IMG/VR virus record: IMGVR_UViG_3300021365_000081
Location: 1-27,468 of that record
Reading direction: 5' to 3' (one strand)
DNA: 27,468 nt
DNA from: a virus
Below the pieces are notes generated by a model. The model was not told the DNA's origin. It made no database searches and saw nothing but the letters and a program-made list of their open reading frames with translations. A program made the position numbers and the translations under genes. Shown here piece after piece: positions 2,328 to 25,669 of the stretch; position 1 is the stretch's first letter; each line of letters begins with the position of its first letter.

Positions 2328-2339
2328 AAATAAATAAAA

Positions 2340-4840: not shown

Positions 4841-4847
4841 AAATAAT

Positions 4848-4872: not shown

Positions 4873-4875
4873 ACA

Positions 4876-5535: not shown

Positions 5536-6587
5536 TGTCATTTACTAGACTTTCTCCTGACGACTTTTTAATTAGTGCTGATAGTGTTACTGCAGGTGCT
5601 TGGACTGGTAATGTCCCTACATTAACTAGCTTTAATACTTCTTCAGTTCAAGTAGCTTCAACAAGTGGAAATTATTATTTAAATATATATCAAACGGGTT
5701 CTACTCAAACAGCGGCAGAAATACAATTTAATATTGCTTTTGGTGATGCTGCGGGTTCTGGATCTTTATTATATGATGCTGGAATTGATGGTAAATCCTA
5801 TACTTCTACTGTATATGGACAATGGCAAAATATTGTTTTAGGAGATGAAAATAATCAATTTATTTTTGGTGGGGTAACTCCTGTTACTCAAAGTTTTTAT
5901 GCTCTTTCTATAGAAAGAAGTAAATACAAAGGTAGTATCTTTCCTGGAACTTTAGATTTATTAATTAGGAGTTCAAGTGCAGGGGGAAACTTTGATTTAC
6001 GGTTAACTGATAATAGCAATGATGTTTCAACTACTGTATTTAATGAAGCAGGAAGAGTATTCCAAATAGTATCAGGATCAGCAGGAAAAGCTGTGGGGAC
6101 AGGAGCAACCCCTTCAGATGCTGTTGCTAATGGCATGACAGCATCAGGTTCTTATGGATTATTCCTCCCAGATATTGGAACTATAATTTTAAATGCAACT
6201 GCTTTAAATTTAGAATCAAGTGGAGGAGGAGTAGGATTAAATACTTTATATAACTCTAATACAACAGATAATAATCCTGCTACATTATATAATGCTATAT
6301 CAAGCTCAGGTAATTTTACTTTAAATAGTCAAGAAAATATAACTTCTGATTATGTCTTCGTAAGAGCAAAAAATAGCCAATTTAATTATTCTGAAAATCC
6401 TTCGTTTATTTCAGGTTCAACAGGGGCTGTACTTTATAATAATTTTATTAATGCACCTCAGACATTTATTACTACTATAGGAATGTATAATGATGAAAAT
6501 GAATTACTAGCAGTAGCTAAATTAAGTAAACCTCTTATTAAAGATTTTACAAAAGAAGCACTCGTTAGAGTTAAGCTAGATTTCTAA
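5535..6587 (+). CDS. Virion structural protein with C-terminal domain shared with the next gene
   Basis: This gene encodes 350 residues and starts by TAATG overlap. The body is Ser/Gly/Thr/Asn rich and beta-prone. The last 85 residues contain FVRAKNSQFNYSENPSF, then TTIGMYNDENELLAVAKLSK and a closing VRVKLDF. The adjacent protein has a matching arrangement (NEYNYSLNPSLL, TVGLYNENQDLIAIGKLSQP, ILINIDK), so the two share a C-terminal domain. I recognise this module as recurrent in structural proteins of marine T4-like phages, but its function is unknown to me. Adjacent paralogues with different N-terminal parts suggest duplication followed by divergence. A role at the baseplate or fibre attachment site is inferred. 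Confidence 0.65.
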   Translation: MSFTRLSPDDFLISADSVTAGAWTGNVPTLTSFNTSSVQVASTSGNYYLNIYQTGSTQTAAEIQFNIAFGDAAGSGSLLYDAGIDGKSYTSTVYGQWQNIVLGDENNQFIFGGVTPVTQSFYALSIERSKYKGSIFPGTLDLLIRSSSAGGNFDLRLTDNSNDVSTTVFNEAGRVFQIVSGSAGKAVGTGATPSDAVANGMTASGSYGLFLPDIGTIILNATALNLESSGGGVGLNTLYNSNTTDNNPATLYNAISSSGNFTLNSQENITSDYVFVRAKNSQFNYSENPSFISGSTGAVLYNNFINAPQTFITTIGMYNDENELLAVAKLSKPLIKDFTKEALVRVKLDF

Positions 6588-6590
6588 TGA

Positions 6591-7691
6591 ATGAGCTATT
6601 TAAAAACACTTACAAACCAAGATGTAATTATAACTCCATTTGGGGTTAATAAAGGATTTTCTTTTATTGGTAGAAGTGTACAATCCTTATCCCCTTATGG
6701 GGGAACAGTTTATGGAACAGGGATATATGGGCAAGAAATTATATTGGGAGATACTTTAAATCAAGCTTATATAGATAGATTTTTAGCTGTTAATACCCCA
6801 GAGGAAGGATTTTTTAATACCATTACTGAACCAACTACAGGGTATTTTTCTACTCAGTATCAAAAATTAGTATATGATTCTATTAAACAGCTTTATTATT
6901 CAAATTTTACTACATCTGCTACAGGGGATTCACCTGCTACTGCAAGTTTAGTACCTGGGGTTGATGTTGAAGGGGATAGGTTAACGGGATTAAAAACTTC
7001 TCGTGGACGGTTTTATAATTTCCCCCAATCAAACCTAACCCCAGATCGGGGATTTTCAACAGATAAAAATGCCGCAATAGGAGTATTGTCAGTACCTTCT
7101 AAATTATATGGAAATTATATTCAACCTTCATCTTTTACTATAAGATTTGGGTCTGGTTCTGCAGGGGCTACTTATTATGATATAAAGGATGATGGTGAAG
7201 GTAATTTATTATTAGATAATGAACATTGTGGTAATATTATATATGAACAAGGAATTGCAATTTTAACGGGTAGAGTTGTTAGTGGTTATGGGGCTGATGT
7301 TTACGGGAATAATTTTTATGGAGGAGATACTGGGAGTTTTACTAATGATCCTTCTTGGATAAGAAATTTTGTGGATACTAGAAATATTAGTTGTTCTTTT
7401 TCTTCATCATTTGATATATACGAAACTCAATATAAATGTACTATAAGAGCTAATGAATATAATTATTCATTAAATCCTAGTTTATTAGAAAATTTTGGAC
7501 AAAATGAAATTCTCATTTCAGGAAGTAACCAATATAAAGGATTTGTAACGGGTTCTGACTTTAGTCCTTATGTTTCTACTGTGGGGTTGTATAATGAAAA
7601 TCAAGATTTAATAGCAATAGGAAAGCTATCTCAACCTCTTCCTACTTCGCAAACTACAGATACTACCATACTTATAAACATAGATAAATAA
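6591..7691 (+). CDS. Virion structural protein, C-terminal paralogue of the preceding gene
   Basis: This gene encodes 366 residues. The N-terminal half has several Gly/Tyr-rich motifs (YGGTVYGTGIYGQ near 36-48, then GYGADVYGNNFYGGDTG near 232-248), typical of loops in beta-structured virion proteins. The C-terminal region (NEYNYSLNPSLL, then TVGLYNENQDLIAIGKLSQP) matches the end of the upstream protein. I chose the ATG at 6591, three bases after the upstream stop. An ATG at 6587 is in another frame and does not give this protein. The function is inferred as a tail or baseplate component next to the fibre-like genes. Confidence 0.64.
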   Translation: MSYLKTLTNQDVIITPFGVNKGFSFIGRSVQSLSPYGGTVYGTGIYGQEIILGDTLNQAYIDRFLAVNTPEEGFFNTITEPTTGYFSTQYQKLVYDSIKQLYYSNFTTSATGDSPATASLVPGVDVEGDRLTGLKTSRGRFYNFPQSNLTPDRGFSTDKNAAIGVLSVPSKLYGNYIQPSSFTIRFGSGSAGATYYDIKDDGEGNLLLDNEHCGNIIYEQGIAILTGRVVSGYGADVYGNNFYGGDTGSFTNDPSWIRNFVDTRNISCSFSSSFDIYETQYKCTIRANEYNYSLNPSLLENFGQNEILISGSNQYKGFVTGSDFSPYVSTVGLYNENQDLIAIGKLSQPLPTSQTTDTTILINIDK

Positions 7692-7695: not shown

Positions 7696-9471
7696 ATGGC
7701 AAAAAAATTAAAAAAAATATTCGCAGCAGGTACTGATGAAGTAGTACAAGCTTTTACTGTAAATTCATGGCACGTATCTCAATCTGTAGATGCTCTTACA
7801 GCTGCCCAAGATTATGATATTTCAATTAGTGGTAGTTTAAATGTAACTGGGTCAGTAAGTATTAAAGAGTTAAATACAGATGCTGCCCTTACTGATTTTG
7901 TAGTTATTGATACTTCTACAGGTACATTAAAAAAACGCACCTCAGGTGCATCAGGTTCTTCAGGTACTTCTGGTTCAAGTGGCACTTCAGGAAATGGAAG
8001 TTCAGGTACTTCGGGTTCAAGTGGTACTTCAGGTACTTCAGTTGTAGGTCCTGCAGGAAATTCAGGTTCATCAGGTACTAGTGGTTCTTCAGGCACATCT
8101 GCAACAGCTGTAACAGGTTTAGATACTCAAGTATTATATTTTGATGGTGATGATAATCCAGCAGGAGATTCTGAGTTAACTTGGGATGATGTTAATAAAA
8201 CATTAAGAATTTCTTCTGCAGATGATGGAACCTCAGGAAAATCCAATTTAATATTAACTAACGATGTTGCTTCTCCTACACTTTCCACAGTTAATTTAGG
8301 GAATATTGTTGGAAAAATGCCTGATGACGCTACAGGTATAGAACATGCTAAAATTCAATTTGAACCAGATAATGCAAATTGGGTATATGCTAGTGGGGAA
8401 TGGAAAATAGCCCCTTCAGCAATAACTTTTTGGACTAATACTACTAATGTTCCTAGCGAAAAGATGAAAATTGGGTATAATGGTCAAATTCAATTACTAA
8501 AATATGATAGTTCTGGAGATTTTGTGTCTTCAACACCTACTTATAATCTAGGAACAGATACTGCAGGGAATATAGTTCAAGTTTCTACTAACTATTCAGG
8601 TTCTAATTATTTAGATGTAGAAGTTGATCGGATTGATTATAACAGTAATACTGCTGACGATTTAACAGGAGCTGGATCGTATCAATTTATTATAGATGCT
8701 CTTATGACAGATATTCCTGGTGCTAACGAAATGGTAATTAATAATGGGGTTAAAGCAAGTACTAGTAGAATTAAAATTAATATAGGAAGTTTTACTCAAG
8801 AAATGAATGTTGTAACTCCTGTTTCAATGTCTCAAATTGTAATAGGAAATACTGCTACAGGGGCAGGATCAAGTTGGGCTACTTATAATATTAAAAGTGT
8901 TTCGTTATTAAATGATCCTATTGAAGGAGATTATTTAGACATGACTCTCGAGTATCAATCGACTCAAGGAGGTACTGATTTTACCGCAGGTACAGCTGTT
9001 AATGTATTTAGACTCAGACCTAAAAATAATGTTAGTACTTCTACTATATATCCTATTAAAAATTATTACACTACAATTCAATACGGAAACCTTTCAAGTA
9101 CGGATGATGTTAGTTCAACCCTATTTGGATTTTGGTTAGATGAGACTTTTAGATCAGGTTTAAATTCAGGCGATGAATTAATTGTAGAAGCAAAATGGTT
9201 TCCTAATACGGGACAAACCGGAACCACTGGTCCTACTATTAGTTTTATTTCATTTAATACAAGTGATTCAGGAGCTACTCTTCGTAGACAATTTTTACCA
9301 AGAATTGTTACTCCAAGTACCCCCCAAGTATATTCAATATCTACTAATAACGGGAATTATGGCACAACCCAAATTTTTAAATTTCAATATTGGGAAAGAT
9401 CAAGCAGTGAATATGGGTTAATTCCTTTAAATGCATATGATACTTCATTCCAACCTTCTACTCTTAGTTAA
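7696..9471 (+). CDS. Fibre-like protein with collagen-like Gly-X-Ser repeats (paralogue 1)
   Basis: This gene encodes 591 residues. Residues 1-53 (MAKKLKKIFAAGTDEVVQAF, then WHVSQSVDALTAAQDYDISI) are nearly the same as in the next gene and probably form an attachment or assembly head. Residues about 84-136 are collagen-like triplets dominated by GTS and GSS, with a short GPAGNSG interruption; no hydroxylatable Pro is needed in phage triple-helix stalks. The rest is beta-prone, and the last 40 residues (FKFQYWERSSSEYGLIPLNA) again match the end of the next gene. The gene is preceded by aaataatctcATGGC, also identical to the next gene. A trimeric stalked fibre involved in host contact is inferred; collagen-like repeats are well known in tail fibres. 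Confidence 0.72.
   Translation: MAKKLKKIFAAGTDEVVQAFTVNSWHVSQSVDALTAAQDYDISISGSLNVTGSVSIKELNTDAALTDFVVIDTSTGTLKKRTSGASGSSGTSGSSGTSGNGSSGTSGSSGTSGTSVVGPAGNSGSSGTSGSSGTSATAVTGLDTQVLYFDGDDNPAGDSELTWDDVNKTLRISSADDGTSGKSNLILTNDVASPTLSTVNLGNIVGKMPDDATGIEHAKIQFEPDNANWVYASGEWKIAPSAITFWTNTTNVPSEKMKIGYNGQIQLLKYDSSGDFVSSTPTYNLGTDTAGNIVQVSTNYSGSNYLDVEVDRIDYNSNTADDLTGAGSYQFIIDALMTDIPGANEMVINNGVKASTSRIKINIGSFTQEMNVVTPVSMSQIVIGNTATGAGSSWATYNIKSVSLLNDPIEGDYLDMTLEYQSTQGGTDFTAGTAVNVFRLRPKNNVSTSTIYPIKNYYTTIQYGNLSSTDDVSSTLFGFWLDETFRSGLNSGDELIVEAKWFPNTGQTGTTGPTISFISFNTSDSGATLRRQFLPRIVTPSTPQVYSISTNNGNYGTTQIFKFQYWERSSSEYGLIPLNAYDTSFQPSTLS
7945..8103 (+). repeat. Imperfect 9-base minisatellite encoding collagen-like GTS/GSS triplets
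   Basis: Short in-frame units of the form tcaggtacttcaggttca repeat imperfectly and encode Gly-Ser/Thr-Ser triplets. The third codon positions vary, so selection acts on the protein. The same unit type forms a longer array at 9735-10031, giving two homologous repeat arrays about 1.8 kb apart that could recombine. Confidence 0.8.
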
Positions 9472-9485
9472 TTTTAAATAATCTC

Positions 9486-11477
9486 ATGGCTAAACAACTA
9501 AAAAAAATATTTATTCCTGCTACTGATGAGGTAGTTCAAAATTTTAAGATACAATCATGGCATGTATCTCAATCTGTAGATGCCTTTACAGCTGCCCAAG
9601 ACTATGATATTTCAATTAGTGGAAGCCTTACAACATCTGGAAGTGTAATCTTCCAGGGATTAAGTACTACTACAGGTCAAACTGATGTTTTAGTTTTAGA
9701 TGGAGATATTGTTAAAACACAATCAACCACTCTAGGTACCTCAGGTTCAAGTGGTACATCAGGTTCATCAGGTACTTCAGGTTCATCAGGATCTTCAGGT
9801 ACATCAGGATCAAGCGGTACTTCAGGTAGTTCAGGTACATCAGGATCATCAGGTACAAGCGGATCATCAGGCACATCAGGTACCTCAGGATCATCAGGTA
9901 CTTCAGGTTCTTCAGGTTCTTCAGGTTCATCTGGTACTTCAGGAATATCTATAGCAGGTTCTTCAGGAACATCAGGTTCATCTGGTGTTTCAGGTACTTC
10001 AGGTTCTTCAGGTTCATCAGGTACAAGTGGTTTAACTTGTTATCAATATTCTATAACCCCTAGTACTTCAGGTCAATCTACTATAACATATGATAGCTGT
10101 GACTGTGATGGTGGTACACAAAATTTAATTGTATTACCCCCTATTGATTGTGGAAATAGTGCGGGATATTCGGGTGGAGTTGGATACCCTATCCAACAAC
10201 CTATTAATTTTGGAACTTCAACAGGTAATGTTGCTATAATAGGAGTTGCTTATTCTGTACCTGATAGATTTATAGTTGAATATAATGGAAGTATAGCTGC
10301 GGATAGTGGATATAGAGGAGCTTCTTCATATAATATTGGGGGAGGTAACAGATCATCATTTACTACGGCATTAGATGGTCTTATAGATCCCATTACTAAC
10401 CTTGCTTACCCAAATACATCAATCCCAGGTACTGAGAGTGATGGGTATCCTACAGTAACTTCCCCAGGAACTACTACTATTACTTTTGATAAAAATCTTT
10501 CTACTGTGGAATATGGTGATTTTAAAGTATATGCTCCAATGAATAACACGGCGTGGGATGCTGAAATTGGATGTCCTAATGGAGAAGCTTCACCCGTAGG
10601 TACTTCTACTTATTCTGCTACAGTATTTGCTACGAGTGCCCCTACAGTAACTTCAGGAGAAGCTGCTACAATAACTTGTCAGGGAATTGCAGGAAGTATA
10701 GATAACTCAACTGCTGGAGGGAGTACTTCTACAGGTGGAAATGGAGATAATAATTATATTAGAGTAGTTCAACCTAATCTTGTTTATAGTATTGATGAAA
10801 GTGTCTCAGGATATACTATTGATACTACAATCTCATCAGGAAATCCTGGAGCAGATACTATTGGATTCGATGGTACAACTCCTACAGCACCAGGTCAACT
10901 TTTTATAAATACGGGAAGTGCAGGAGGAGCAGGGGATTATTATTATTTGTTTACTCAACAACTTGCTAATAGTGGATCAATTAGACTTGTTGGACAAAAT
11001 GGAGCCGATCGCACATTTAGTGGTTTAAGTGTTTCTGAGGGGGTTGGATTTATTACAGTAGCTTATGATACAGTAACAGTTAATAATGCCACAGCTTATG
11101 TTAGAAGTGAAAATGCAACTACATTTGATGTTAATGCTGATTGGTATGAATATACAATTCCTAGAGGATATAATCGTATAGCAGTACAAAATCTTAGCGA
11201 TGATACAACTACACCTTTTATTTTAAGAGCAGATAGTACCTTAGATGTAGGAGATAATGCTATTTTAGAAGTAGAATTAATAGCAGGAAGTTCAAGAACT
11301 TTTTATGGATATTTCTATAACGTAGGACATAACTCAAGTAGTTTTTATAATAATGAAGGGGTTCAAATGTTCTCAAATGCAGATACTACATCAGTATTCC
11401 AAGTAATGTATTGGGAATCCGGAAGTAGTGCTAATAATGGTTTAGTACCTTTAACAGCACAGCAAGTTAATCCTTAA
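9486..11477 (+). CDS. Fibre-like protein with long collagen-like repeat (paralogue 2)
   Basis: This gene encodes 663 residues. The head (MAKQLKKIFIPATDEVVQNF, then WHVSQSVDAFTAAQDYDISI) matches the upstream paralogue. The triplet repeat spans residues about 84-182, nearly twice as long as in paralogue 1, with a short ISIAG break at 154-158. A Cys-containing segment follows (C185, then CDCDGG near 205-210 and C222), which the first paralogue lacks. The central body differs, while the end (MYWESGSSANNGLVPLTA) again resembles it. Shared ends with a replaced middle are expected for host-range modules under diversifying exchange. An adhesin or tail-fibre role is inferred from architecture, not demonstrated. 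Confidence 0.72.
   Translation: MAKQLKKIFIPATDEVVQNFKIQSWHVSQSVDAFTAAQDYDISISGSLTTSGSVIFQGLSTTTGQTDVLVLDGDIVKTQSTTLGTSGSSGTSGSSGTSGSSGSSGTSGSSGTSGSSGTSGSSGTSGSSGTSGTSGSSGTSGSSGSSGSSGTSGISIAGSSGTSGSSGVSGTSGSSGSSGTSGLTCYQYSITPSTSGQSTITYDSCDCDGGTQNLIVLPPIDCGNSAGYSGGVGYPIQQPINFGTSTGNVAIIGVAYSVPDRFIVEYNGSIAADSGYRGASSYNIGGGNRSSFTTALDGLIDPITNLAYPNTSIPGTESDGYPTVTSPGTTTITFDKNLSTVEYGDFKVYAPMNNTAWDAEIGCPNGEASPVGTSTYSATVFATSAPTVTSGEAATITCQGIAGSIDNSTAGGSTSTGGNGDNNYIRVVQPNLVYSIDESVSGYTIDTTISSGNPGADTIGFDGTTPTAPGQLFINTGSAGGAGDYYYLFTQQLANSGSIRLVGQNGADRTFSGLSVSEGVGFITVAYDTVTVNNATAYVRSENATTFDVNADWYEYTIPRGYNRIAVQNLSDDTTTPFILRADSTLDVGDNAILEVELIAGSSRTFYGYFYNVGHNSSSFYNNEGVQMFSNADTTSVFQVMYWESGSSANNGLVPLTAQQVNP
9735..10031 (+). 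repeat. Long 9-base minisatellite encoding collagen-like triplets
   Basis: About 297 bases consist of imperfect 9-base units (tcaggtacatcaggttcat-like) giving about 33 Gly-X-Ser triplets. The low-complexity array produces long spurious open frames in other frames and on the other strand. Length variation by slippage or recombination is plausible because unit boundaries are in frame, so gain or loss of units would keep the protein intact. Confidence 0.82.
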
Positions 11478-12884: not shown

Positions 12885-13645
12885 GTACTTTAAAAAAACA
12901 TTATGGACGTATATTAGAAATTTCTGATGACCATAAACAAATAACCCTCCCAGATGGAAGATATTACCAACGAAATGGTGAATATTACCCCTCTGTAACT
13001 TACGTATTGAGCCATTACCCTAAAGGTAAATTTTTTGAGGATTGGCTTAAAAAGGTAGGATACGCTTCAGAGTATATTGTAAAAAAAGCGAGTGAAGAAG
13101 GTACACAAGTTCACGAAATGATTGAAGCTTACCTTAATGGTGAGGAATTAAAATTTTTAGAATATGGTGTTCCTATGTACCCTACTTTAGTATGGCAAAT
13201 GTTTCTACGATTTGTTGATTTTTGGGAAGAATATAAACCTACATTAATCGAAGCTGAAGTTCATTTATTTTCTGATAAACTTAAAATTGCAGGAACCTGT
13301 GATATGGTTTGTGAAATAAATGGTGAATTATGGGTTATAGATTTTAAAACATCTAACCATTTACAAACTACCTATGATTTACAAACAGCTATTTACGCCC
13401 AATGTTTTGAAGAATGTTTTGGTAAAAAAGCAGATCGTACTGGTGTATTATGGTTAAAATCTTCTAAGCGGGGTCCTAAAAAAGGTGCTATGCAAGGTAA
13501 AGGATGGGAAATGTATGAATCCAAACGTTCTCAAGAAGATAATTTAAGTATCTATAAAGCAGTTCGTACTTTATTTGATATTGAAAACCCAAAACATAAA
13601 CCTGCATTTACAGAATTCAGAACTACAGCTAAAAGAAATTCGTAA
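12881..13645 (+). CDS. PD-(D/E)XK superfamily nuclease (RecB/Cas4-like exonuclease fold)
   Basis: This gene encodes 254 residues. The motifs of a RecB-type PD-(D/E)XK nuclease appear in order: GTQVHEMIEAYL (74-85), a Glu within LIEAEVHLF (122-130), AGTCDMVCE with D141, WVIDFKTS (151-158, D154 and K156), and YDLQTAIYAQCFEE (165-178) as the QxxxY-type motif. These residues coordinate Mg2+ for DNA cleavage. There is no Fe-S Cys cluster as in Cas4. It overlaps the primase by 4 bases (ATGA) and so probably acts in phage DNA replication, recombination or processing. Such proteins are common in T4-like marine phages. Substrate polarity cannot be told from the sequence. Confidence 0.85.
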   Translation: MSTLKKHYGRILEISDDHKQITLPDGRYYQRNGEYYPSVTYVLSHYPKGKFFEDWLKKVGYASEYIVKKASEEGTQVHEMIEAYLNGEELKFLEYGVPMYPTLVWQMFLRFVDFWEEYKPTLIEAEVHLFSDKLKIAGTCDMVCEINGELWVIDFKTSNHLQTTYDLQTAIYAQCFEECFGKKADRTGVLWLKSSKRGPKKGAMQGKGWEMYESKRSQEDNLSIYKAVRTLFDIENPKHKPAFTEFRTTAKRNS

Positions 13646-13653
13646 TATTTATA
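13644..13653 (+). promoter_or_regulatory. AATATTTATA motif upstream of the kinase gene
   Basis: An exact copy of the recurrent 10-base motif overlaps the stop codon of the nuclease gene and ends 14 bases before the GTG start at 13668. It supports a real gene boundary here and the choice of the GTG over an upstream ATG. Confidence 0.35.
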
Positions 13654-13667
13654 GTAAACATTTTACT

Positions 13668-14462
13668 GTGAAATTATACGATATCTTACAAGAAATACAA
13701 GGTAAACCTAAAGCTATTATATTAGCGGGTGCTCCTGGAGCTGGAAAAGGATATATCTTAAGGGGCTTAGACTTAGGGGGCTTAAAAATAATGAATGTAG
13801 ATGATCAATACATTGCCAATTTAAAACAATCTAATGTTAGTTTAGATTTAAAAAATTCAACTCCCGAAGAAAGAAGTAAAGGAGCTTCAGCAATGGCTTT
13901 AGCAGTTAAAGATTTTAAACAAGATGTAGCATTTACTATTAAAAATAAAGAATCATTTATTTTAGATGGTACAGGAGCTTCATATAACCAAACAATAAAA
14001 TTAAAAACTGAATTAGAGGAGGCAGGATATGAGGTATTTATGCTTTATGTTTATACTGATTTAGAACGTTCTCTAAAACAAAACCAAAACAGATACGAGA
14101 AATCAGATGGCAAAGACAGAAGTCTAGCCCCAGGTATTGTAATGAAAACTTGGAAAAACGTAACTCAAAACTTTAAACCCTACCAAGATCTATTTGGTTC
14201 TAATTTTACTTCAGTAGCTAATACCTTAGAAGACCAAGAAATATCAGACTTAGAAGATATAATTGACACATATCTTACACCTTTTACTCCCAAAGGAACT
14301 AAACCTAAAACTCCTAAAGAACAAGCCCGATCTGATGCTAGAAAAGCTAAAGATGCTGAAGAAATAAAAGCTATGTTGAATGATAAATTCATCCAAAATA
14401 TAGTTACCAATTCAGTATCTAAAGAAGAAGCACAATCTAAAATTCAATCTTTCTTATCATGA
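13668..14462 (+). CDS. P-loop kinase resembling Zeta toxin, GTG start
   Basis: I choose the GTG at 13668 (264 residues). The in-frame ATG at 13575 would overlap the nuclease gene by 71 bases and add a segment that looks like an out-of-frame reading of it. The N-terminus then reads MKLYDILQEIQGKPKAIILA. Walker A is GAPGAGKG (21-28), NVDD (43-46) may supply the catalytic Asp, ILDGTGAS follows a kinase strand near 98-105, and a lid-like Arg-rich segment lies near 140-155. This resembles Zeta toxin / AAA_33 kinases, which phosphorylate small molecules such as UDP-activated sugars. No antitoxin is adjacent, so a nucleic acid or metabolite kinase is equally likely. The last 45 residues are a charged helical tail. 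The L-Q-E at 7-9 resembles the leaders of the downstream cluster. Confidence 0.75.
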   Translation: MKLYDILQEIQGKPKAIILAGAPGAGKGYILRGLDLGGLKIMNVDDQYIANLKQSNVSLDLKNSTPEERSKGASAMALAVKDFKQDVAFTIKNKESFILDGTGASYNQTIKLKTELEEAGYEVFMLYVYTDLERSLKQNQNRYEKSDGKDRSLAPGIVMKTWKNVTQNFKPYQDLFGSNFTSVANTLEDQEISDLEDIIDTYLTPFTPKGTKPKTPKEQARSDARKAKDAEEIKAMLNDKFIQNIVTNSVSKEEAQSKIQSFLS

Positions 14463-16780
14463 ATTTTTTAACTGCTGAATTAATTAAAGATTTATTACCT
14501 GAGGGAGTTGATTCTTCTCGAAAAAAGGTAATTGGTATGTTTGGTGGAGGTTTTAAACCTCCTACTATAGGCCACCTTGAGGTAGTAAAACGGGCTTTAC
14601 AAGAAAATCCTGAAATGGATGCCCTTATTATATTAGTAGGTAGTGGAACTCGAAATTCAATTAGCCAGGAAGAATCACTTGCTATTTGGAATATATATAA
14701 AAAATCCCTTCCTAGTAAAGTAAGAGTAATGGCTTCACCTGAAGGTAAAGCACCTATAGCTGCTATATACTCATATGCTAAAAAGAATCCTGATAAAGAA
14801 GTCTATTGGTTTTTGGGTGCTAGAGAAGGAAATGAAGAAGATTTTCAAGATATAATGAAGCGTACTCAATCTCTTCGTAAAGGAGATTATTCAAATCTTA
14901 AAGTTAAAGAAATAGTAACAACGGGAGCAGTCAGTGGTACTAAAGCTAGACAAGCTTTATTAGCCCAAGATAAAGAAACATTCATCCAATTCCTCCCAGA
15001 TATTCCTGAAATAGATGAAATTTGGAACCTGCTATCTGATGTAATTACTGAGCGGATCAATTTTACACCTGATTTTATTACTAAAGGTGATGTAAAATTC
15101 GTAGATGATATGGCCGATAGAAAGTTAGCTCCTATTGAAGTTGATTTATCAGGAAGACATTTTTTTGACAGACTAAATGACCCAAGAAATTTTCCAGATA
15201 TTTCAATTGAAGAATTAGAAGATTTTTTTGATAAATTATCTGATGAAAAAGAAGAATTTATTGAATTCCTCCAAAAATATAGAGAAATAGTAGTAAAAGA
15301 TACAGAAACTAACATAAATATTCCTTTTATGAAATTAGCAAACAAGGCAATTGCTAAAACTATTATGCGTAAAAAGAATTTTTTAAGTTCTACCCCTGTT
15401 TTACCTTTACAAGAAATAAGCTACGATGGTGAAACTACAATGCAATCTCGCTATATAATAAACCAACTTAAAGCTAATTTAGGCACTTATTATGAAGAAG
15501 AAACAGTAGGAAATTTAAGAGATATAGAATATACCCTCGAATTTAAATTAAACCCTGTAAAATCTGAGAAATTAGGTTATGCACCTTATCTTGTAGATGC
15601 CGCTGGTGGTAAAGATGGTATAGAATTAATTGTAAATTATGAACCTTCTTCATATCCTCAATTTTTAAATGATTTAATAGCTGAACTTAAGGATACTTTA
15701 CGCCACGAATTAGAACATGTTGGGCAAGAAAATTTTGAAAAAGGAGTTAGAATAGGAAATGTTAAAAATGACGCTAATCTACCCCTCCCAGAATACCTTA
15801 CTCTTGATTATGAAATTCCTGCTTTTATAAGAGGATTAAATAAAAAAGCTAAAACTAAAGATATTACATTAGGACAAGCTATAGATGAATTTTTCTTAGA
15901 GCGTGCTGACGAACTATCTTATGAAGAAGAGGCATACGTAAAACGTAAATGGGTAGAATGGATAAAAAAGAATCTTCCTAAAACCCCTTTACAAGAAGCA
16001 GATCCTAAAAAAGGTACAGGTAAAAAACCTAAAGGAAGCAGTCGAAGACTTTATACAGATGAAGATCCATCTGATACAGTAGGTATAAAATTTAAAACTA
16101 AAGAAGATATAGTTGATACTTTAAATAAATCTTCATTTAAAAATAAACCTCATGCTCGTCAATCTCAAGTAATTAATTTAATCCATCAACGGGTTAGAGC
16201 AGCTTATGGAAAAGCTAAAGATCCTGATGTTAAATCTAGATTAAAAAGAGGGTTAGATTATATTACAAAACGTAAAGAAGCATCTAAAAAGAAAACCCAA
16301 CGGTTAAAAGATAAAAAAACTAACGAAAATACAGTTTTAAACCATAACCAAAAATCAGCTCCTTATGGCTCAGGATATGAAAAATTAAATGAAAATTTTG
16401 AAGGACGCATCCAATCTTACACAGATTCTCTTTCAAAGTATATGGCTGGCCAAGATTTAAATATTCAACCGCTTCCTTCATTAGAATTTATAGATAACGA
16501 CGAAGAAAACGCAGGCAATATTTTCGGAAAAACCGCATATTATATGCCTTCTGAAATGAAAATTGTTTTATATACAATGGGGAGACACCCCAAAGATATA
16601 TTACGTTCATTTGCACATGAAATGATTCACCATCATCAAAATTTAAGTGGTACTTTAGGTAATATACAAACCACTAATACAAATGAAGATGGTAATCTAG
16701 AAAAATTAGAACGTGAAGCTTATGAAAATGGTAACATAATGTTTAGAAACTGGGAAGATCAATTAAAAAATGAAAACTAA
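14459..16780 (+). CDS. Multidomain fusion: cytidylyltransferase-like domain, unknown phage domain and two HExxH metallopeptidase-like domains
   Basis: This gene encodes 773 residues and overlaps the kinase gene by ATGA. Residues 22-190 form a nucleotidyltransferase fold of the cytidylyl/NMN-adenylyl class: GGFKPPTIGH (30-39, the T/HxGH site) and VSGTKAR (158-164, the ISxTxxR-type site). Residues about 205-308 (HFFDRLNDPRNFPDIS, EELEDFFDKL, TIMRKK) form a phage domain of unknown role. A domain at about 320-505 contains RHELEH (415-420), an HExxH zinc-peptidase signature. Residues about 514-618 are a basic helical module (RRLYTDEDPSDT, HARQSQVINLIHQRVRAAY). The last domain at about 646-773 has AHEMIHHHQ (719-727), a second HExxH. 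The sequences LPE (13-15), LQE (317-319 and 511-513) and LNE (643-645) lie at the leader and domain junctions and fit prohead-protease sites. A polyprotein of packaged enzymes is inferred. Confidence 0.78.
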   Translation: MNFLTAELIKDLLPEGVDSSRKKVIGMFGGGFKPPTIGHLEVVKRALQENPEMDALIILVGSGTRNSISQEESLAIWNIYKKSLPSKVRVMASPEGKAPIAAIYSYAKKNPDKEVYWFLGAREGNEEDFQDIMKRTQSLRKGDYSNLKVKEIVTTGAVSGTKARQALLAQDKETFIQFLPDIPEIDEIWNLLSDVITERINFTPDFITKGDVKFVDDMADRKLAPIEVDLSGRHFFDRLNDPRNFPDISIEELEDFFDKLSDEKEEFIEFLQKYREIVVKDTETNINIPFMKLANKAIAKTIMRKKNFLSSTPVLPLQEISYDGETTMQSRYIINQLKANLGTYYEEETVGNLRDIEYTLEFKLNPVKSEKLGYAPYLVDAAGGKDGIELIVNYEPSSYPQFLNDLIAELKDTLRHELEHVGQENFEKGVRIGNVKNDANLPLPEYLTLDYEIPAFIRGLNKKAKTKDITLGQAIDEFFLERADELSYEEEAYVKRKWVEWIKKNLPKTPLQEADPKKGTGKKPKGSSRRLYTDEDPSDTVGIKFKTKEDIVDTLNKSSFKNKPHARQSQVINLIHQRVRAAYGKAKDPDVKSRLKRGLDYITKRKEASKKKTQRLKDKKTNENTVLNHNQKSAPYGSGYEKLNENFEGRIQSYTDSLSKYMAGQDLNIQPLPSLEFIDNDEENAGNIFGKTAYYMPSEMKIVLYTMGRHPKDILRSFAHEMIHHHQNLSGTLGNIQTTNTNEDGNLEKLEREAYENGNIMFRNWEDQLKNEN

Positions 16781-16922
16781 AGAATTTATAAAAGCAGTGA
16801 ATGGAGAGTTTGATATAGAAACTCTTGAATTAATGCAAGGATTAATTAATAAAAGATTAACTTTATTAAAGTCTATGCAAGATATAGCTAATAAAAAACA
16901 AATAAAAGGTTTTAGAAGATGA
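16770..16922 (+). CDS. Small hypothetical protein, 50 residues
   Basis: This short gene starts inside the end of the large fusion gene (ATG at 16770, 11-base overlap) and ends by ATGA overlap with the next small gene. The protein begins MKTKEFIKAVNGEFDIETLE and ends in a basic stretch (KKQIKGFRR). It is predicted to be mostly helical and fills most of the gap otherwise left between two clear genes. The KTKEFIKA start resembles the leaders of neighbouring proteins. There is no recognised family. The overlap at both ends and the absence of stops support it as a real gene, but its short length keeps confidence moderate. Confidence 0.55.
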   Translation: MKTKEFIKAVNGEFDIETLELMQGLINKRLTLLKSMQDIANKKQIKGFRR

Positions 16923-17086
16923 GTGGTACTACAGGAAAAAGCAAAGGACTGGGAGATACGGTAGAAAAAATCACAACAATCACAGGTATTAAAAAAGTAG
17001 TAGATACTATATCTGAAAAAACAGGGAAAGGATGTGGTTGTAATAAAAGAAAAGAAAAATTAAATAAAAAGTTTCCGTATGAATGA
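16919..17086 (+). CDS. Small Cys-containing protein, 55 residues
   Basis: The ATG at 16919 overlaps the stop of the preceding small gene, and the gene's end overlaps the next start at 17079 by 8 bases. The protein reads MSGTTGKSKGLGDTVEKITT, then GIKKVVDTISEKTGKGCGCN, then a very basic KRKEKLNKKFPYE end. The TGIKK...GCGCNKRKEKLN arrangement recurs, to my memory, as a small protein of marine phages, and the CGC could bind a metal or form part of a larger complex. Function is unknown. Being nested between overlapping neighbours, it is likely translated by coupling. Confidence 0.6.
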   Translation: MSGTTGKSKGLGDTVEKITTITGIKKVVDTISEKTGKGCGCNKRKEKLNKKFPYE

Positions 17087-17654
17087 TAATGTTTTAAAAA
17101 AAGAATTTACCAAAAAAGATGTACAACGCGCACGTAATCTAATCACAGGTGATGCAGGTGCCCGTACTACTGAAGGAGTAGGTTATAAGAAAAAATACGA
17201 ACACCGTGTTGAAGGTGATGTATGGGAAGAAAATGGTAGAAAATGGACTATTAAAAATGGTCTAAAACAAAATATCACCAAAATGGATAAATTTAAAAAA
17301 ATGGGTAAAATGCCCTTATTTTGTCCTGAATGTAATACATTAATGAATGATGGCTTAGATAAAAAAGTTTACCCAGCTTACCAAAAGTGTCTTAATTGTG
17401 TTGTAGACTATGAAGCTGAATTAAAAAAACAAGGTAAAGATAAAGAATATTTTGATGGTTTACATAACAGCCATATATCTAATATTCAAAAAGAGTATAC
17501 AAATTTTATTAATGAAAAGCTTACTGAATCTAGTGATGGATATATTACTGAAAAAGGTGATAAAGAAAATTGGAGAGGAGGCTTATCAAAAGAACAACTT
17601 GAAAAAGAACTCCAAGAAGGTATGGAATTTCTTGAAAATTTGAAGGTTAAGTAA
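17079..17654 (+). CDS. Hypothetical protein with a C4 zinc-ribbon
   Basis: This gene encodes 191 residues. A C4 ribbon is formed by C82-x2-C85 (FCPEC) and C104-x2-C107 (KCLNC), separated by 18 residues, which is suited to structural zinc and nucleic-acid or protein binding. The N-terminal part (KKDVQRARNLITGDAGA, then GDVWEENGRKWTIKNG) has a Trp-containing beta segment before the ribbon. The C-terminus is helical and charged (SKEQLEKELQEGMEFLENLK). INE and LTE occur at 144-150. I associate the domain order with uncharacterised phage proteins. Its position among candidate packaged proteins suggests a virion or DNA-associated role, which is inference. Confidence 0.68.
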   Translation: MNDNVLKKEFTKKDVQRARNLITGDAGARTTEGVGYKKKYEHRVEGDVWEENGRKWTIKNGLKQNITKMDKFKKMGKMPLFCPECNTLMNDGLDKKVYPAYQKCLNCVVDYEAELKKQGKDKEYFDGLHNSHISNIQKEYTNFINEKLTESSDGYITEKGDKENWRGGLSKEQLEKELQEGMEFLENLKVK

Positions 17655-17667
17655 TTTTATATATTTA
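17639..17667 (+). promoter_or_regulatory. Candidate Bacteroidota-type promoter
   Basis: TTTG at 17639-17642 lies 17 bases upstream of TATATTTA at 17660-17667, close to the Bacteroidota consensus TTTG-N(17-23)-TAnnTTTG; the final G is absent. The -7-like box ends 8 bases before the ATG at 17676, so a transcript would have a very short leader. The box also matches the ATATTTAT motif seen before other genes. Chance matches are expected at this base composition. Confidence 0.3.
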
Positions 17668-17675
17668 TCAACAGT

Positions 17676-18095
17676 ATGGCTCAATGTAATATAGAAGAAG
17701 TAATTAAATCTGTAGTAGCAGAAAAAAAACGGGATCGATGTCTCCGCATTGCTGACAGAAAATTTGATAAACCTTCTGCATACAAAAGTGGAGCTGTTGT
17801 TAGATGCCGTAAAGGGAATATTTGGAAAGGTTTAAAAGAAGAACAACAAACTTTAGTTCAAGAAAAAGCTAAAGAAACTTTACGCACCTGGTTTAACAGA
17901 TCAGGAGCACCTGGTAAAACAGGAGGGTGGGTTGATTGTAATGCTCCTATTCGTAAAGATGGTAAAATAACAGGTTATAAATCTTGTGGTAGAAAAAAAG
18001 ACGAAAAACGCTCTTACCCAGCTTGCAGACCAACAGCTGCTAAGTGTAAAGATAAAGGTAAAGGTAAATCTTGGGGTAAAAAAGCCTCAAAATAA
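17676..18095 (+). CDS. Basic Cys-rich phage protein with GGWVDC...PACRPT module
   Basis: This gene encodes 139 residues and is strongly basic. Two blocks are visible: SAYKSGAVVRCRKGNIWKG (34-52), and a Cys-rich module running GGWVDCN (83-89), CGRKKDEKR (104-112) and YPACRPTAAKC (114-124), followed by a Lys/Gly-rich tail. The second block is one I recall from a domain of unknown function widespread in phages and some cellular genomes (possibly DUF5872; the number is from memory). The spaced Cys residues may bind zinc, and the basic tail suggests nucleic-acid contact. The start at 17676 follows a TATATTTATC motif. Function is unknown. Confidence 0.7.
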   Translation: MAQCNIEEVIKSVVAEKKRDRCLRIADRKFDKPSAYKSGAVVRCRKGNIWKGLKEEQQTLVQEKAKETLRTWFNRSGAPGKTGGWVDCNAPIRKDGKITGYKSCGRKKDEKRSYPACRPTAAKCKDKGKGKSWGKKASK

Positions 18096-18126
18096 CATAA
18101 CTAAAGGGAACTTATCAATATTATAA

Positions 18127-18316
18127 AAAATGAAAAAATCTGAATTTAAAGAATATTTGAAAACTGAGATACTTCAAATGTCTGAAGCTACTAAAGAAGA
18201 AGTAGACACACAAAAAGAACTTAATGCCGAATTAGAAAAAACTAAGGAATTAACTTCTACAATGGAAGGTAAAATGAAAAAATCTGAATTTAAGGAATAC
18301 CTTAAAAATGAGATTT
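18127..18316 (+). repeat. Direct DNA repeat of the gene start region
   Basis: A stretch of about 25 bases beginning aaaatgaaaaaatctgaatt is present at 18127 and again at 18271, 144 bases (48 codons) apart and in frame. The identity is highest over the start codon and first eight codons, as expected for a tandem duplication of the leader. Confidence 0.75.
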
Positions 18317-18705
18317 TAGCAGAACTTAGCAATATTGACCCTGGAACCGAACCTAAGTCATTCTTAAGAAAAAAACCAAGTTATGTTCAATTAGAAGCTG
18401 GTGGCAATATTGATCCTGGAGTAGAACTTAAATCTTTTTTAAAGAAAAAACCAGATCATATTCAACTTGAAGAAGAAGAAGAAGTTGATGTTGATATTGA
18501 TGTAACCGATGATGTAGAAGTTGATGACGAAGTATCTATAGAAGCAACCCCAGAGGAAGCTACGCTAGTGGGTATGACAGATGAATTAGTAGCAATAGCT
18601 AAACGAGCAAAAGATGCTGGATTTATAGAATTAGCAAACCAAATTCTTAATTCTGCAAAATTCTCTTCCAAAACTCAATTTGACGCAATCACACCTGAAG
18701 TATAA
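18130..18705 (+). CDS. Acidic protein with duplicated leader and duplicated linker modules
   Basis: This gene encodes 191 residues. MKKSEFKEYLK(T/N)EIL occurs twice, at 1-15 and 49-63, and NIDPGxExKSFLxKKPxxxQLE occurs twice, at 68-89 and 93-114. The segment 115-140 is extremely acidic (EEEEEVDVDIDVTDD and onward), and the C-terminus from about 147 is a helical module (MTDELVAIAKRAKDAGF). The second leader retains its own Met at 49, preceded by AAA-rich sequence, so an internal start giving a 143-residue form is possible. LAE at 63-65 fits the L/I-x-E protease consensus. An acidic, repetitive, possibly trimmed protein suggests scaffold or capsid-interior use. This is inference. Confidence 0.65.
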   Translation: MKKSEFKEYLKTEILQMSEATKEEVDTQKELNAELEKTKELTSTMEGKMKKSEFKEYLKNEILAELSNIDPGTEPKSFLRKKPSYVQLEAGGNIDPGVELKSFLKKKPDHIQLEEEEEVDVDIDVTDDVEVDDEVSIEATPEEATLVGMTDELVAIAKRAKDAGFIELANQILNSAKFSSKTQFDAITPEV

Positions 18706-19649
18706 TGGCTAAGAAAAAAACCAAATTAGAAAAAATGTCTAAAGATGAAAGAACATCTTTAGCATATGCCTTAGCTACTAATTTGGCTAAGCATGGTAAG
18801 CCTCAAACACCTAAAAATGAGCGTAAGTTAACTAAGGGTGAAGCGAATAAAAAGGAAAAGCACGTCATGAAATTTAAAGATTCTTTTGATTTAGAAGAAT
18901 TAAAAAATCCTAAAAAAGCTGATTTAAATAAAGATGGCAAACTTTCTTCTTACGAAAAAACTAGAGGAGCAGCTATTGAAAAAAATATAAATGAAGCACC
19001 AGGATCTACATTAACCCTGTCTCAATCCGATATGGATAAACTACACAAAGATGGGAAATTAGAAATTGATGGTCATAAAATTTTATTCAAAATGAATGAG
19101 GATTTAGATTTGGGCCATCAGGATAATGAACCCCATATGCTTAAAAAAGATCTTTATAGGATTGCTAAGTATGCCTCTGAATTATATATGATAGTAAATA
19201 ATTTTGATAATAAAGGAATGGAAGTTGATTTTCCCCATTGGTGGCAATCAAAAATTATCAAAGCAAAAAGCATGTTAATCTCAGCTAAACATTACTTAGA
19301 TGGGGAATTAACAATCCCTCAAATAGATGCTATGTTAGAAGAAGAAATGGATTTAAACGATCCTATTTTAGTAAAACAAAGAGCAGATAAAATAAATCGT
19401 GAAAAAGGGGATTTTGGTAAAGCATATGGAGATGCTGTTAAAGTTGCTTACGGTAGTGATAAAAACGCTAAAAAAATAGCTTTCCTTAAAAAAGAAAGAG
19501 ATCAATTAATGCGTGATATGGAACAAGAAGCTGAACCAGAGGGAGGACCTATTGCAGATAGATACGGTGCTAAATTAGATCGTATTGATAGTGCAATCGC
19601 CAAATTAGAAGGTAGAAAAGAAATGACTTATGATCAAGCTATTAAATAA
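18705..19649 (+). CDS. EF-hand-containing phage protein of unknown function
   Basis: This gene encodes 314 residues, with TAATG overlap at both ends. The N-terminus is Lys rich (MAKKKTKLEKMSKDER). Residues 73-84 (DLNKDGKLSSYE) form a textbook 12-residue EF-hand or dockerin-type Ca2+ loop with D73, N75, D77, K79, S81 and E84. INE at 95-97 lies just after it and separates the two halves. The second half has a conserved-looking helical block (MLKKDLYRIAKYASELY, then FPHWWQSKIIKAKSMLISAK) that I recall from other marine phage proteins. A C-terminal charged coiled segment follows. A role in Ca2+-dependent assembly, or as a packaged protein, is inferred; no catalytic residues are recognised. Confidence 0.68.
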   Translation: MAKKKTKLEKMSKDERTSLAYALATNLAKHGKPQTPKNERKLTKGEANKKEKHVMKFKDSFDLEELKNPKKADLNKDGKLSSYEKTRGAAIEKNINEAPGSTLTLSQSDMDKLHKDGKLEIDGHKILFKMNEDLDLGHQDNEPHMLKKDLYRIAKYASELYMIVNNFDNKGMEVDFPHWWQSKIIKAKSMLISAKHYLDGELTIPQIDAMLEEEMDLNDPILVKQRADKINREKGDFGKAYGDAVKVAYGSDKNAKKIAFLKKERDQLMRDMEQEAEPEGGPIADRYGAKLDRIDSAIAKLEGRKEMTYDQAIK

Positions 19650-20149
19650 TGCAAAAATCTGAATTCATAGCGAAAATTAAAACATTAGCAAAACAAGTTT
19701 ATGCTGATAAAACAAATCAACCTGAAATTGCTCAAAGTAAATTTCCAATGATTGATGAGTTCCCTCCATTAAAAAGTATAATGGATGATTTGTTTGATTT
19801 TCAATATGAACCTTTTGTAGATGACATACAGTGGATTGCTCCCCGTCCTACTACTTTTAGAATAATGTTAGTTAATGGAGCTAATTTTTATTTAATCTAC
19901 CAAGGTGAAGATGGAGATAAAGAATTATTTACCGCCCAAGTAGCTGGTAAAAATTATTGGCTAGAATCACTTGCTGAAGAACAACAAGCCTCAGAAGCCA
20001 TAGCTCGTTTATTAAGATTTAAGTATGCTGCTGTTCCTAAAGATGAAGAAATTGCAGATGAAGATCTAGGAGATGAATTCTCAGAAACAGAAACAGAAAC
20101 AGAAGTTGAAGTAGAACCAGCAGTCCCTCAATCAGTAGAAGATTTATAA
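19649..20149 (+). CDS. Hypothetical phage protein with acidic repeat tail
   Basis: This gene encodes 166 residues, with TAATG overlap at its start. The N-terminus MQKSEFIAKIKTLAKQVY resembles the MKKSEF leader of the gene at 18130. The core (FDFQYEPFVDDIQWIAPRPT, then FRIMLVNGANFYLIY and GKNYWLESLAEEQQASEAIARLL) is a compact alpha/beta module that I associate with uncharacterised proteins of marine phages. The last 35 residues are acidic and include an ETETETEVEVE run encoded by a gaaaca hexanucleotide repeat. No active site is evident. Its neighbours suggest the same accessory or virion cluster. Confidence 0.65.
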   Translation: MQKSEFIAKIKTLAKQVYADKTNQPEIAQSKFPMIDEFPPLKSIMDDLFDFQYEPFVDDIQWIAPRPTTFRIMLVNGANFYLIYQGEDGDKELFTAQVAGKNYWLESLAEEQQASEAIARLLRFKYAAVPKDEEIADEDLGDEFSETETETEVEVEPAVPQSVEDL

Positions 20150-20150
20150 T

Positions 20151-21272
20151 ATGGATGTTTTAGAAAAATTTTTAAGGAAAGTTTCATACAAATTTCCAAA
20201 AGGATATCCTGACATCACTGATAATCAAGATATGATTTTATTAGAAAACATTTTAAATAATCTTTTAAAAGAAGAAGTTCAATTTCGCCCCTTAGAATAT
20301 GGTGAGTTGAAAAAATCAGGTAGAGAATATAGAATATCTACTATATATAATAAAATTCAAGACAAAAAACCTTTTGTTACTACAACAGGTGAAGTAATAC
20401 TACAGTTTAATAACCCTGAACATGCTGAAGTTTTTAAAAATGAAGATAAAGAGGGAATTAAAACTTTAGGGGGACGTAATGTTAATATTTTTCCATTCTT
20501 TAAAGATAATAAAGATAAAACTTATGGTCTTCGAGATCTTTTAAAAACTACTGAATTTGGGGGAAAAGGATCAGGATCAGGTACGGTGGTAGAAGATAGA
20601 AATTTGGGTATTCTTAAAGAACTTATTAAAGACATACTTGATTCTACTGGTAAATCTTCAATTACTGTTAAAATAGGAAATGAAACCCACCCTAATATAG
20701 TAGGAGCCGAAACCCAGGCAGGAATGCCTAAATCAGATTTTAATCTTATTGATACTTCTGGTAAACCTGTCGTTTTTATTTCTCATAAAAAAGGGTCAAA
20801 CGCTGGTGATTTTATTAGGTGGAGTGGTTTTACTATGTATGCCGATGATTCTGAGGTTCAAGCATTTAACAATGCTTTAAAAAAATTCATCTCAGACAAT
20901 AATCTTGAAGGAGTCCCTAGAGCTTCAGCATTTATAGCTCCTGTTAAAAGTCCTGAACTTATAAGAGAATTAATATATGGACCTGAATATGGGGGAAATT
21001 ATTCTAAAGAAAATGTAAATATCATATTACAAGGAACCCCTAAACTTACAGAAGTAGGGGATGGTGTATATGAATTAGGTTCCAACCACACTCTCATCCC
21101 CCCTCAACTCCCAGAGGGAGATTATGCTCCTTATTTAACTTCCAAATATAGATCTGATAGAACTATGTTTGGTATTCCTGATAATGAAGCTATAGCTAGA
21201 ACAAAAGCAGTATCATACAGAGCCTCAAATGTTTATGAGTTGAAAAATGGAGAATTTATTAAAGTAAAATAA
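20151..21272 (+). CDS. Possible nuclease-fold phage protein with EFGGKGSGSG motif
   Basis: This gene encodes 373 residues and starts one base after the previous stop. A leader of about 40 residues ends in ILLEN and LLKEE (L-x-E at 30-32 and 39-41). EFGGKGSGSG lies at 135-144, followed by GMPKSDFNLID (191-201) and VVFISHKKGSNAGDF (207-221). An Asp followed about 15 residues later by a strand ending in S-H-K resembles the PD-(D/E)XK layout, and the GGKGxGSG segment with this pair is recurrent in marine phage proteins that I have seen described as restriction-endonuclease-like. The catalytic Glu is replaced by Ser, so activity is uncertain. The rest is unassigned. A packaged or host-takeover nuclease is a speculation. 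Confidence 0.6.
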   Translation: MDVLEKFLRKVSYKFPKGYPDITDNQDMILLENILNNLLKEEVQFRPLEYGELKKSGREYRISTIYNKIQDKKPFVTTTGEVILQFNNPEHAEVFKNEDKEGIKTLGGRNVNIFPFFKDNKDKTYGLRDLLKTTEFGGKGSGSGTVVEDRNLGILKELIKDILDSTGKSSITVKIGNETHPNIVGAETQAGMPKSDFNLIDTSGKPVVFISHKKGSNAGDFIRWSGFTMYADDSEVQAFNNALKKFISDNNLEGVPRASAFIAPVKSPELIRELIYGPEYGGNYSKENVNIILQGTPKLTEVGDGVYELGSNHTLIPPQLPEGDYAPYLTSKYRSDRTMFGIPDNEAIARTKAVSYRASNVYELKNGEFIKVK

Positions 21273-21275
21273 ATT

Positions 21276-21285
21276 AATATTTATA
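21276..21285 (+). promoter_or_regulatory. AATATTTATA motif upstream of the 21289 gene
   Basis: An exact copy of the recurrent motif lies in a 16-base gap and ends 3 bases before the ATG. The gap before the gene holds nothing else. Confidence 0.38.
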
Positions 21286-21288
21286 ACC

Positions 21289-21930
21289 ATGCTTAAACAA
21301 TACATTCAAGAAGCAATACAGGGCTATCAAATCCCACAAGAACCATGTTCATGTGGTTGTGGTGGCTGTGATGTAGCACCTAAAATCGCTTTACTGGAGA
21401 GTAAAGCGCCTATAAGCGAAGGTCTCCGATATCACATCGATAATGGCATCTCATTGCAAGACAATGTATTTAGAATAGGATCTAAAAAATACCTACAATT
21501 ATTTGCTGAAGCTCGTATGTTAAATGAATGGAAAACTATTAGCTTAGATGAAAATAGTAAATTCCTTATTGAAAATACTGACATTGGTAAATTTGGAATT
21601 TATGAAGGTAAAAAAGTCCCACTTGATATACCTAAAGCTATAGAAGAAGCAGAATATCAAGGTAAAGAAGTTCCAATTGGTAAACCTAAGCGTGGTGGTT
21701 CTAAAGCTTATTATGTTTATGTAATGGACGGAGACAAAGTTAAAAAAGTCTCATTTGGATCAGGCGGTTTAAGAGCAAAAATTAAAGACCCAAAAGCGCG
21801 ACAGGCATTTGCTGCTAGACACAATTGTGATCAAAAGAAAGATAGAACAACAGCAGGATATTGGAGCTGTAACCTCCCAAGATATGCCCCAGCACTCGGT
21901 TTAGGGCCTAAAATGAATACTTTTTGGTAA
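21289..21930 (+). CDS. Phage protein with N-terminal Cys cluster and RHNC...YWSC domain
   Basis: This gene encodes 213 residues. The leader MLKQYIQEAIQG includes I-Q-E (6-8). A Cys cluster CSCGCGGC occupies 20-27, with no clear family match. The main domain begins near ISEGLRYHIDNGISL (42-56) and runs through LFAEARMLNEW, DIGKFGIYEGKKVPLD (99-113), KRGGSKAYYVYV (134-145) and KKVSFGSGGL to AFAARHNC (173-180) and GYWSCNLPRYA (190-200). I recognise this ordered set as a recurrent domain of marine phage structural or accessory proteins, often fused to other domains; its activity is unknown. The conserved His/Cys pair could bind metal. An 8-bp hairpin lies in the coding DNA at 21387-21408. Confidence 0.7.
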   Translation: MLKQYIQEAIQGYQIPQEPCSCGCGGCDVAPKIALLESKAPISEGLRYHIDNGISLQDNVFRIGSKKYLQLFAEARMLNEWKTISLDENSKFLIENTDIGKFGIYEGKKVPLDIPKAIEEAEYQGKEVPIGKPKRGGSKAYYVYVMDGDKVKKVSFGSGGLRAKIKDPKARQAFAARHNCDQKKDRTTAGYWSCNLPRYAPALGLGPKMNTFW

Positions 21931-25150: not shown

Positions 25151-25669
25151 ATGAAAATAGGTTTTTGTGGAACAATGTCTGTAGGTAAAACAACGCTTGT
25201 AAATGCGTTGAAAAAATTACCTGAATTTAAAAATTATAATTTTGCTACTGAACGTAGTAAGTATCTTAATTCATTAGGTATCCCTTTAAATCATGAAACT
25301 ACAATTGAAGGACAAACTATATTCCTTGCTGAACGTGTAACAGAATTAATGCAAGAAAGTCTTATTACTGATAGAACAATTATTGATGTAATGGCTTTTA
25401 CTAATTGTGCTGCAAAAGTAAATTATATAGATGCTGATGCTTTTAACGAATATGCCTCTAGATTTATTAAAGGATACGACTATATCTTTTACATATCCCC
25501 AGAAGGATTAGATATTGAAGATAATGGAATTCGCGAAACAAATGTTGAATATAGAAATGAAATTGACAAAACTATTCAAAAACTTTTATTTAAATATCGT
25601 CCTATTTTTTATACTATTAAAGGATCAACTGAAGAACGTATTCAACAAATTTTAAAAACTATTAATTAA
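25151..25669 (+). CDS. P-loop NTPase (AAA_28/nucleotide-kinase-like)
   Basis: This gene encodes 172 residues. Walker A is GTMSVGKT (7-14). A probable Walker B strand is LITDRTIIDV (71-80) with D74, and a Thr/Arg-rich stretch EERIQQILK closes the fold. The layout (short N-terminal P-loop, NFATERSKYLN, DRTIIDVMAF) is like the small AAA_28 NTPases, often annotated as ATPase or nucleoside/NMN kinase-like, that occur in phages. NadR-type ribosylnicotinamide kinases share this architecture, so NAD or nucleotide metabolism is possible, and it lies near a flavoprotein. The substrate is not determinable here. The start is 12 bases after the previous stop. Confidence 0.75.
   Translation: MKIGFCGTMSVGKTTLVNALKKLPEFKNYNFATERSKYLNSLGIPLNHETTIEGQTIFLAERVTELMQESLITDRTIIDVMAFTNCAAKVNYIDADAFNEYASRFIKGYDYIFYISPEGLDIEDNGIRETNVEYRNEIDKTIQKLLFKYRPIFYTIKGSTEERIQQILKTIN

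Follow-up and report, generated by a model that had tools for sequence, protein, structure and literature searches.

A modular open reading frame and its neighbourhood

The window, by which we mean the whole 27,468-nucleotide stretch that was analysed (IMG/VR record IMGVR_UViG_3300021365_000081), appears to come from a marine T4-like phage. It contains a 773-residue open reading frame (ORF) in which a leader is followed by modules N, C, D, E and F, with a linker peptide before the last (Table 1). The preliminary description of this DNA, made from the letters alone, had read the protein as a nucleotidyltransferase joined to two HExxH domains with protease-like sites at the junctions, and the residues are indeed as claimed: TIGH (the TxGH motif) lies at 36-39, VSGTKAR at 158-164, HELEH and HEMIH in modules D and F, and the L-x-E sites at 13-15 (LPE), 317-319 (LQE), 511-513 (LQE) and 643-645 (LNE). 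The description had overlooked a further junction site, the fifth, which is ITE (196-198) here and [IV]xE in relatives, as well as modules C (~199-317) and E (~514-625). The 773 residues hold 12 [LI]xE, an ordinary density within a single protein, so that a single sequence is no proof and comparison with relatives is needed.

Table 1. Features of the modular ORF and of neighbouring genes in the window (arrow, predicted cut).
Feature	Coordinates	Strand	Remarks
Whole ORF	14459..16780	+	773 aa multi-module precursor, 88.5 kDa
N-terminal leader, MNFLTAELIKDLLPE, aa 1-15	14459..14503	+	predicted capsid-targeting propeptide, LPE at end
Module N, nucleotidyltransferase, NMNAT/NadD/PPAT fold, aa 16-198	14504..15052	+	predicted end ITE↓
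Module C, aa 199-319	15053..15415	+	LPLQE↓ at end
Module D, zincin-like metallopeptidase domain, aa 320-513	15416..15997	+	HELEH 416-420, conserved E452, end LQE↓
Module E, KKGTGKKPKGSSRRLYTDED basic domain, aa 514-625	15998..16333	+	
Linker peptide, VLNHNQKSAPYGSGYEKLNE, aa 626-645	16334..16393	+	LNE↓ at end; pLDDT <50 at 614-649
Module F, zincin-like metallopeptidase domain, aa 646-773	16394..16777	+	HEMIH 720-724
Zeta-toxin/AAA-type kinase gene	13575..14462	+	PF06414 1.6e-15; N-terminal ...KLYDILQE↓IQG leader
DUF5872 protein	17676..18095	+	[LI]xE near N-terminus; possible cargo
Two further ORFs (phrog_13937; phrog_7595)	20151..21930	+	N-terminal [LI]xE; possible cargo

AlphaFold prediction of the chain with ten relatives gave folded blocks separated by segments with pLDDT <50 (13-15, 306-320, 513-569 and 614-649). 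The full-chain model is modest (mean pLDDT 64.8). All four sites of the preliminary description lie inside or border these segments, and site 196-198 is intermediate (59); most other LxE of the chain fall in blocks with pLDDT 74-88. The leader is predicted to form a helix at 2-10 before confidence drops at its end. No single fold runs across the junctions, and module F folds alone (pLDDT 88.9, pTM 0.85).

Module N matches PF01467 at the family cut-off and TIGR00125 above its cut-off, and its best structural counterparts in the PDB by Foldseek are NadD/PPAT structures (E 4.5e-5, prob 1.00). It has the Rossmann-type fold, the HIGH-like TxGH and the SxTxxR motif in common with the NadD/NadR/CoaD superfamily, but differs in falling under all equivalog cut-offs, every match to the equivalog profiles for an NMN or NaMN substrate being far below. 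Phages are known to manipulate NAD metabolism to counter NAD-depleting defences (for example PMC12774641), and module N may have a role there. Among homologues, every F module (83/83) and all but one D module (84/85) have the HExxH motif. For module F, Foldseek against the PDB placed IrrE and selecase, both zincin-type metallopeptidases, as best but weak matches (best E 0.03), and the H, E, H and a downstream E are invariant across 48 sequences; in module D, E452 is invariant in a 10-protein alignment. PDB chains searched with the sequences of D and F yielded no useful match. Host or defence proteins are possible substrates of both domains. The domain of module C is also found in phrog_23027 and in Sinorhizobium and Methylophilales T4-like phages, and its version in Flavobacterium phage immuto weakly resembles T4 RegB (PF10715, E 0.0056, below cut-off), so module C is possibly, on a weak match, RegB-like. 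Module E is a stand-alone gene in Pelagibacter phage HTVC033P.

Directly upstream, and overlapping the start of the ORF, lies a zeta-toxin/AAA-type kinase gene, which is likely another cargo; in its homologues the start is apparently an internal Met, not TTG. Most ORFs of the 13575-21930 block carry [LI]xE within the N-terminal 60 residues, and the first six ORFs of the window (9-7691, tail or fibre region) have none there, a contrast that suggests a cargo gene island from 13.6 to 21.9 kb. Within the block, one protein (18130-18705) contains the leader-like MKKSEFKEYLK(T/N)EIL twice, at its N-terminus and around residue 49. Elsewhere in the window, two paralogous proteins with long GTSGSSGTSG repeats (7696-11477) are probably fibres or adhesins, and an AAA_28 (NadR-kinase-type) protein, possibly a nucleoside kinase, is encoded at 25151-25669, on the same fragment as the NMNAT-like module. 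PADLOC gave no match to defence systems.

Module shuffling and the junction motif

A protein search found relatives of the 773-residue ORF on 17 viral contigs. The cultured relatives belong to one group, the Flavobacterium immuto phages, which encode a T4-type terminase, gp20, gp21 and gp23 and in which NMNAT appears as an annotation. The homologue in phage immuto is QQO92100. The relatives differ by whole segments that are present, missing or reordered, more than as orthologues with substitutions. Pairwise BLAST alignments with the window protein break at 513/514 and 643 (L004, L005) and at 196 (L008), breakpoints that coincide with LxE sites. Module D precedes C in L009 and L013, F precedes D in immuto, and only N and F are found in L016/L017. 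Profiles of the two HExxH modules retrieved 160 further rows of related loci, which gave 125 unique proteins. Scored with eleven module profiles, the 111 complete proteins collected via the two HExxH modules show 64 different module orders, a figure that includes 23 single-module D genes and in which unassigned stretches count as order differences. The ORF thus belongs to a large family of module strings in T4-like phages, and in joining several unrelated domains in varied order this family resembles polyvalent proteins.

Homologues also exist as separate genes with leaders of their own, a comparison that the preliminary description had proposed. LxE↓G(R/K)YD marks the start of module D wherever it stands, whether within a string or directly behind the initiator leader in a D gene of its own (MKNLITE↓GRYD, MSNLLNE↓GRYD). 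Similarly, a leader-like 20-mer, DPFGLNxxAxxxxxE, forms the N-terminus of the stand-alone F gene L079 and recurs within many strings, ahead of F or D. These shared starts point to a fusion of genes that may once have been separate cargo genes. In phage immuto, DUF5661 with module C, and a 5'-nucleotidase, are separate leader-bearing genes; the 5'-nucleotidase is fused in L118, and related modules are fused elsewhere. Some relatives have no recognisable leader and begin directly with the NMNAT domain (for example L209, L220 and L250). Very long zincin-free members (L254, L242, L236, L279 and others, up to 1615 aa) open with an MNELSxxLVExIL leader followed by an NMNAT-like domain. Inside one module string (L071:983-4363, residues 555-596) there is a weak ADP-ribosyltransferase match (PF15633, below cut-off), which resembles polyvalent proteins.

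We then compared the junctions, using a non-redundant set filtered at 50% identity. [LIV]xE occurs at 98/105 module junctions and [LI]xE at 85/105, the latter against 15.7 +/- 3.6 expected from same-length windows inside modules (maximum 27 in 1000 draws). The motif is also present in 19/20 non-redundant N-terminal leaders of relatives. Upstream of F it was found in 33/41 cases (9.3 expected, z 8.5), upstream of D in 18/20 (4.4 expected, z 7.4) and downstream of D in 21/25 (6.1 expected, z 7.2); since the sequences are related, these z-scores overstate independence and are descriptive, not probabilities. Ten control motifs, among them [LI]xD/K/N/S, [AGS]xE, altered spacing and reversed order, stay near background (z -2.4 to +2.3), so that the enrichment is specific to L/I(/V), an exact one-residue spacing and E. 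Together, the junction counts and the controls rule out a chance origin of the junction motif.

The sites themselves are conserved in relatives at the junctions, as the polyprotein reading of the preliminary description predicted. In the 10-protein alignment L317/E319 and L643/E645 are invariant and the middle residue is variable; site 511-513 varies to LDE or INE and is lost as FEG in L003 and L007. [LIV]xE is found inside folded domains too, and the motif alone therefore does not define cutting.

Prohead protease and competing readings

L/I-X-E is the published cleavage motif of the T4 prohead protease gp21 (PMC9026906). The T4 internal proteins are directed into the core by leaders of ~10 aa, which gp21 then cleaves off (PMC9026906, PMC9958956). 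A gp21 family match is present in 11/19 and 11/12 records of relatives, including all 13 records of at least 140 kb that were searched, one of which (G028) has a weaker match within a longer frame. A 132-kb record (G007) has no gp21 match and a short gp23-like match, a 122-kb record (G008) has neither, and the 27-kb window holds no gp21 or capsid gene. Most records without gp21 also lack gp23, and those lacking both are probably fragments; a gp21 protein search in the gp21-lacking records came back empty, but had no positive control and is hence uninformative. The gp23 precursors of six relatives and of immuto have conserved LLE, LLE and LVxE in the N-terminal propeptide, and gp21 of relatives has [LIV]xE near its own N-terminus. 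The computation shows that the chain is modular, that LxE marks its junctions, that the sites are disordered, that relatives encode gp21 and that gp21 and gp23 have these sites too.

Quite probably, the product of the ORF is a cargo polyprotein that a T4-like phage packs into its virion: it would be directed to the prohead core, processed by gp21 and expelled together with the DNA; that it is a cargo polyprotein matured in the prohead is strongly supported by sequence comparison. For the cutting, packaging, ejection and role of each piece we infer the following course. The leader would bring the precursor into the prohead core; once the shell closes, a gp21-type prohead serine protease would cut in flexible linkers, after the E of (L/I/V)-x-E. 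The products would be the leader (1-15), the NMNAT-like piece (16-198), C (199-319), zincin D (320-513), E with the linker (514-645) and zincin F (646-773); the predicted masses of the five pieces after the leader are, in this order, 20.4, 14.2, 22.4, 15.0 and 14.8 kDa. These pieces would remain in the head, leave with the DNA at ejection and act immediately on host targets, most likely NAD or nucleotide metabolism and host or defence proteins. A polyprotein cut into four or five pieces, perhaps in prohead maturation, had been proposed in the preliminary description; the junction motif and the shuffling support the polyprotein, and none of the checks named there, on a fold spanning the junctions, on L-x-E conservation and on HExxH in homologues, spoke against it. 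The number of pieces is likelier five or six plus the leader. Counting against the reading are the leaderless relatives, the loss of site 511-513 in L003 and L007, and the lack of a gp21 match in the window, G007 and G008. A published proteome of the virion was found for no family member, phage immuto, the only cultured relative in the collection, included.

The same LxE sites could also be the recognition site of the embedded zincins D and F, which would then cut their own chain, as embedded zincin peptidases have been proposed to release domains of phage polyvalent proteins (Iyer et al. 2017, PMC5512222). Both modules do have an intact HExxH, but 49/80 proteins found via module C have no HExxH at all and still show LxE both in their leaders and upstream of C (for the latter 11/20 junctions, with 3.2 expected, z 4.7), and the motif recurs in gp21 and gp23 and equals the known gp21 motif. 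Because zincin-free proteins keep the motif, cutting by embedded zincins is not needed; these relatives weaken zincin autoproteolysis as the sole cutter, and we regard the polyvalent-protein model as improbable.

The chain could instead be packaged and delivered uncut, with the LxE-rich linkers serving as flexible spacers or as preferred recombination seams. There is precedent in the N4 virion RNA polymerase, which is packaged unprocessed (PMC5512222), and shuffling requires permissive linkers in any case. What makes an uncut chain unlikely is that only L/I/V and E at the exact one-residue spacing are enriched, that the middle residue varies, and that the same motif closes N-terminal leaders, where a seam is unnecessary. 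A third alternative is a conventional auxiliary enzyme with several domains that serves NAD metabolism in the infected cell, where it is produced, and is not packaged. It would suit the NMNAT annotation of the immuto phages and the AAA_28 gene nearby; the leader and junction motifs, the position of the gene among other leader-bearing ORFs and the fact that NMNAT is merely one of many swapped modules leave it very little probability.

We return to the polyprotein cut in the prohead. It is fairly likely that many T4-like phages have such a general modular system for cargo delivery, in which effector cassettes bounded by prohead-protease sites share one leader, are separated in the head and are co-injected. 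Because all cassettes have this one short site at their boundaries, they could be added, lost or reordered without harm, and from the shared boundary a great variety of module orders would follow. If true, this would be the phage equivalent of animal-virus polyproteins, with the capsid maturation protease doing the cutting, and it suggests that phages use that protease for polyprotein processing, a strategy usually tied to eukaryotic RNA viruses. An LxE in a linker would serve as a simple rule for finding and delimiting injected cargo modules across hundreds of sequences from uncultured T4-like phages, and the loading of many different proteins into one T4-like head becomes directly testable. 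Candidate early-acting proteins for host takeover or counter-defence are the nucleotidyltransferase, the zincins, the 5'-nucleotidase and the weak RegB and ADP-ribosyltransferase matches.

Comparison with known systems

The open-licence literature yielded no account of a protein in which several cargoes are shuffled and each junction has a prohead-protease site. Taken separately, T4 internal proteins and polyvalent proteins are known; the combination is new as far as that literature goes. In the giant phages phiKZ and SPN3US, which process head and ejection proteins, many head proteins are cut C-terminal to E, at S/A-x-E, by a gp21 relative (PMC9026906, PMC10052503), but the SPN3US cuts remove propeptides, and the available text of these two papers does not mention a chain that is split into several unrelated folded cargoes. 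With polyvalent proteins (PMC5512222) the family shares great length, many domains, HExxH zincins, nucleotidyltransferases (there of the Pol-beta type), mosaic orders and a proposed co-delivery with the DNA. A text search of PMC5512222 gave no mention of leaders or LxE sites. Release by embedded zincins was proposed for those proteins; here the boundaries have a prohead-protease motif, which is kept even without a zincin. The likeness to T4 IPI-III and Alt, which have a capsid-targeting sequence and are cut by gp21, lies in the short N-terminal leader ending in L/I-x-E (PMC9026906, PMC9958956), in the fact that relatives encode a gp21 homologue and a gp23 precursor that bears these sites, and in a presumed ejection with the DNA. 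In T4, however, one leader serves one cargo, whereas here 2 to 7 or more modules follow in series and are shuffled between phages.
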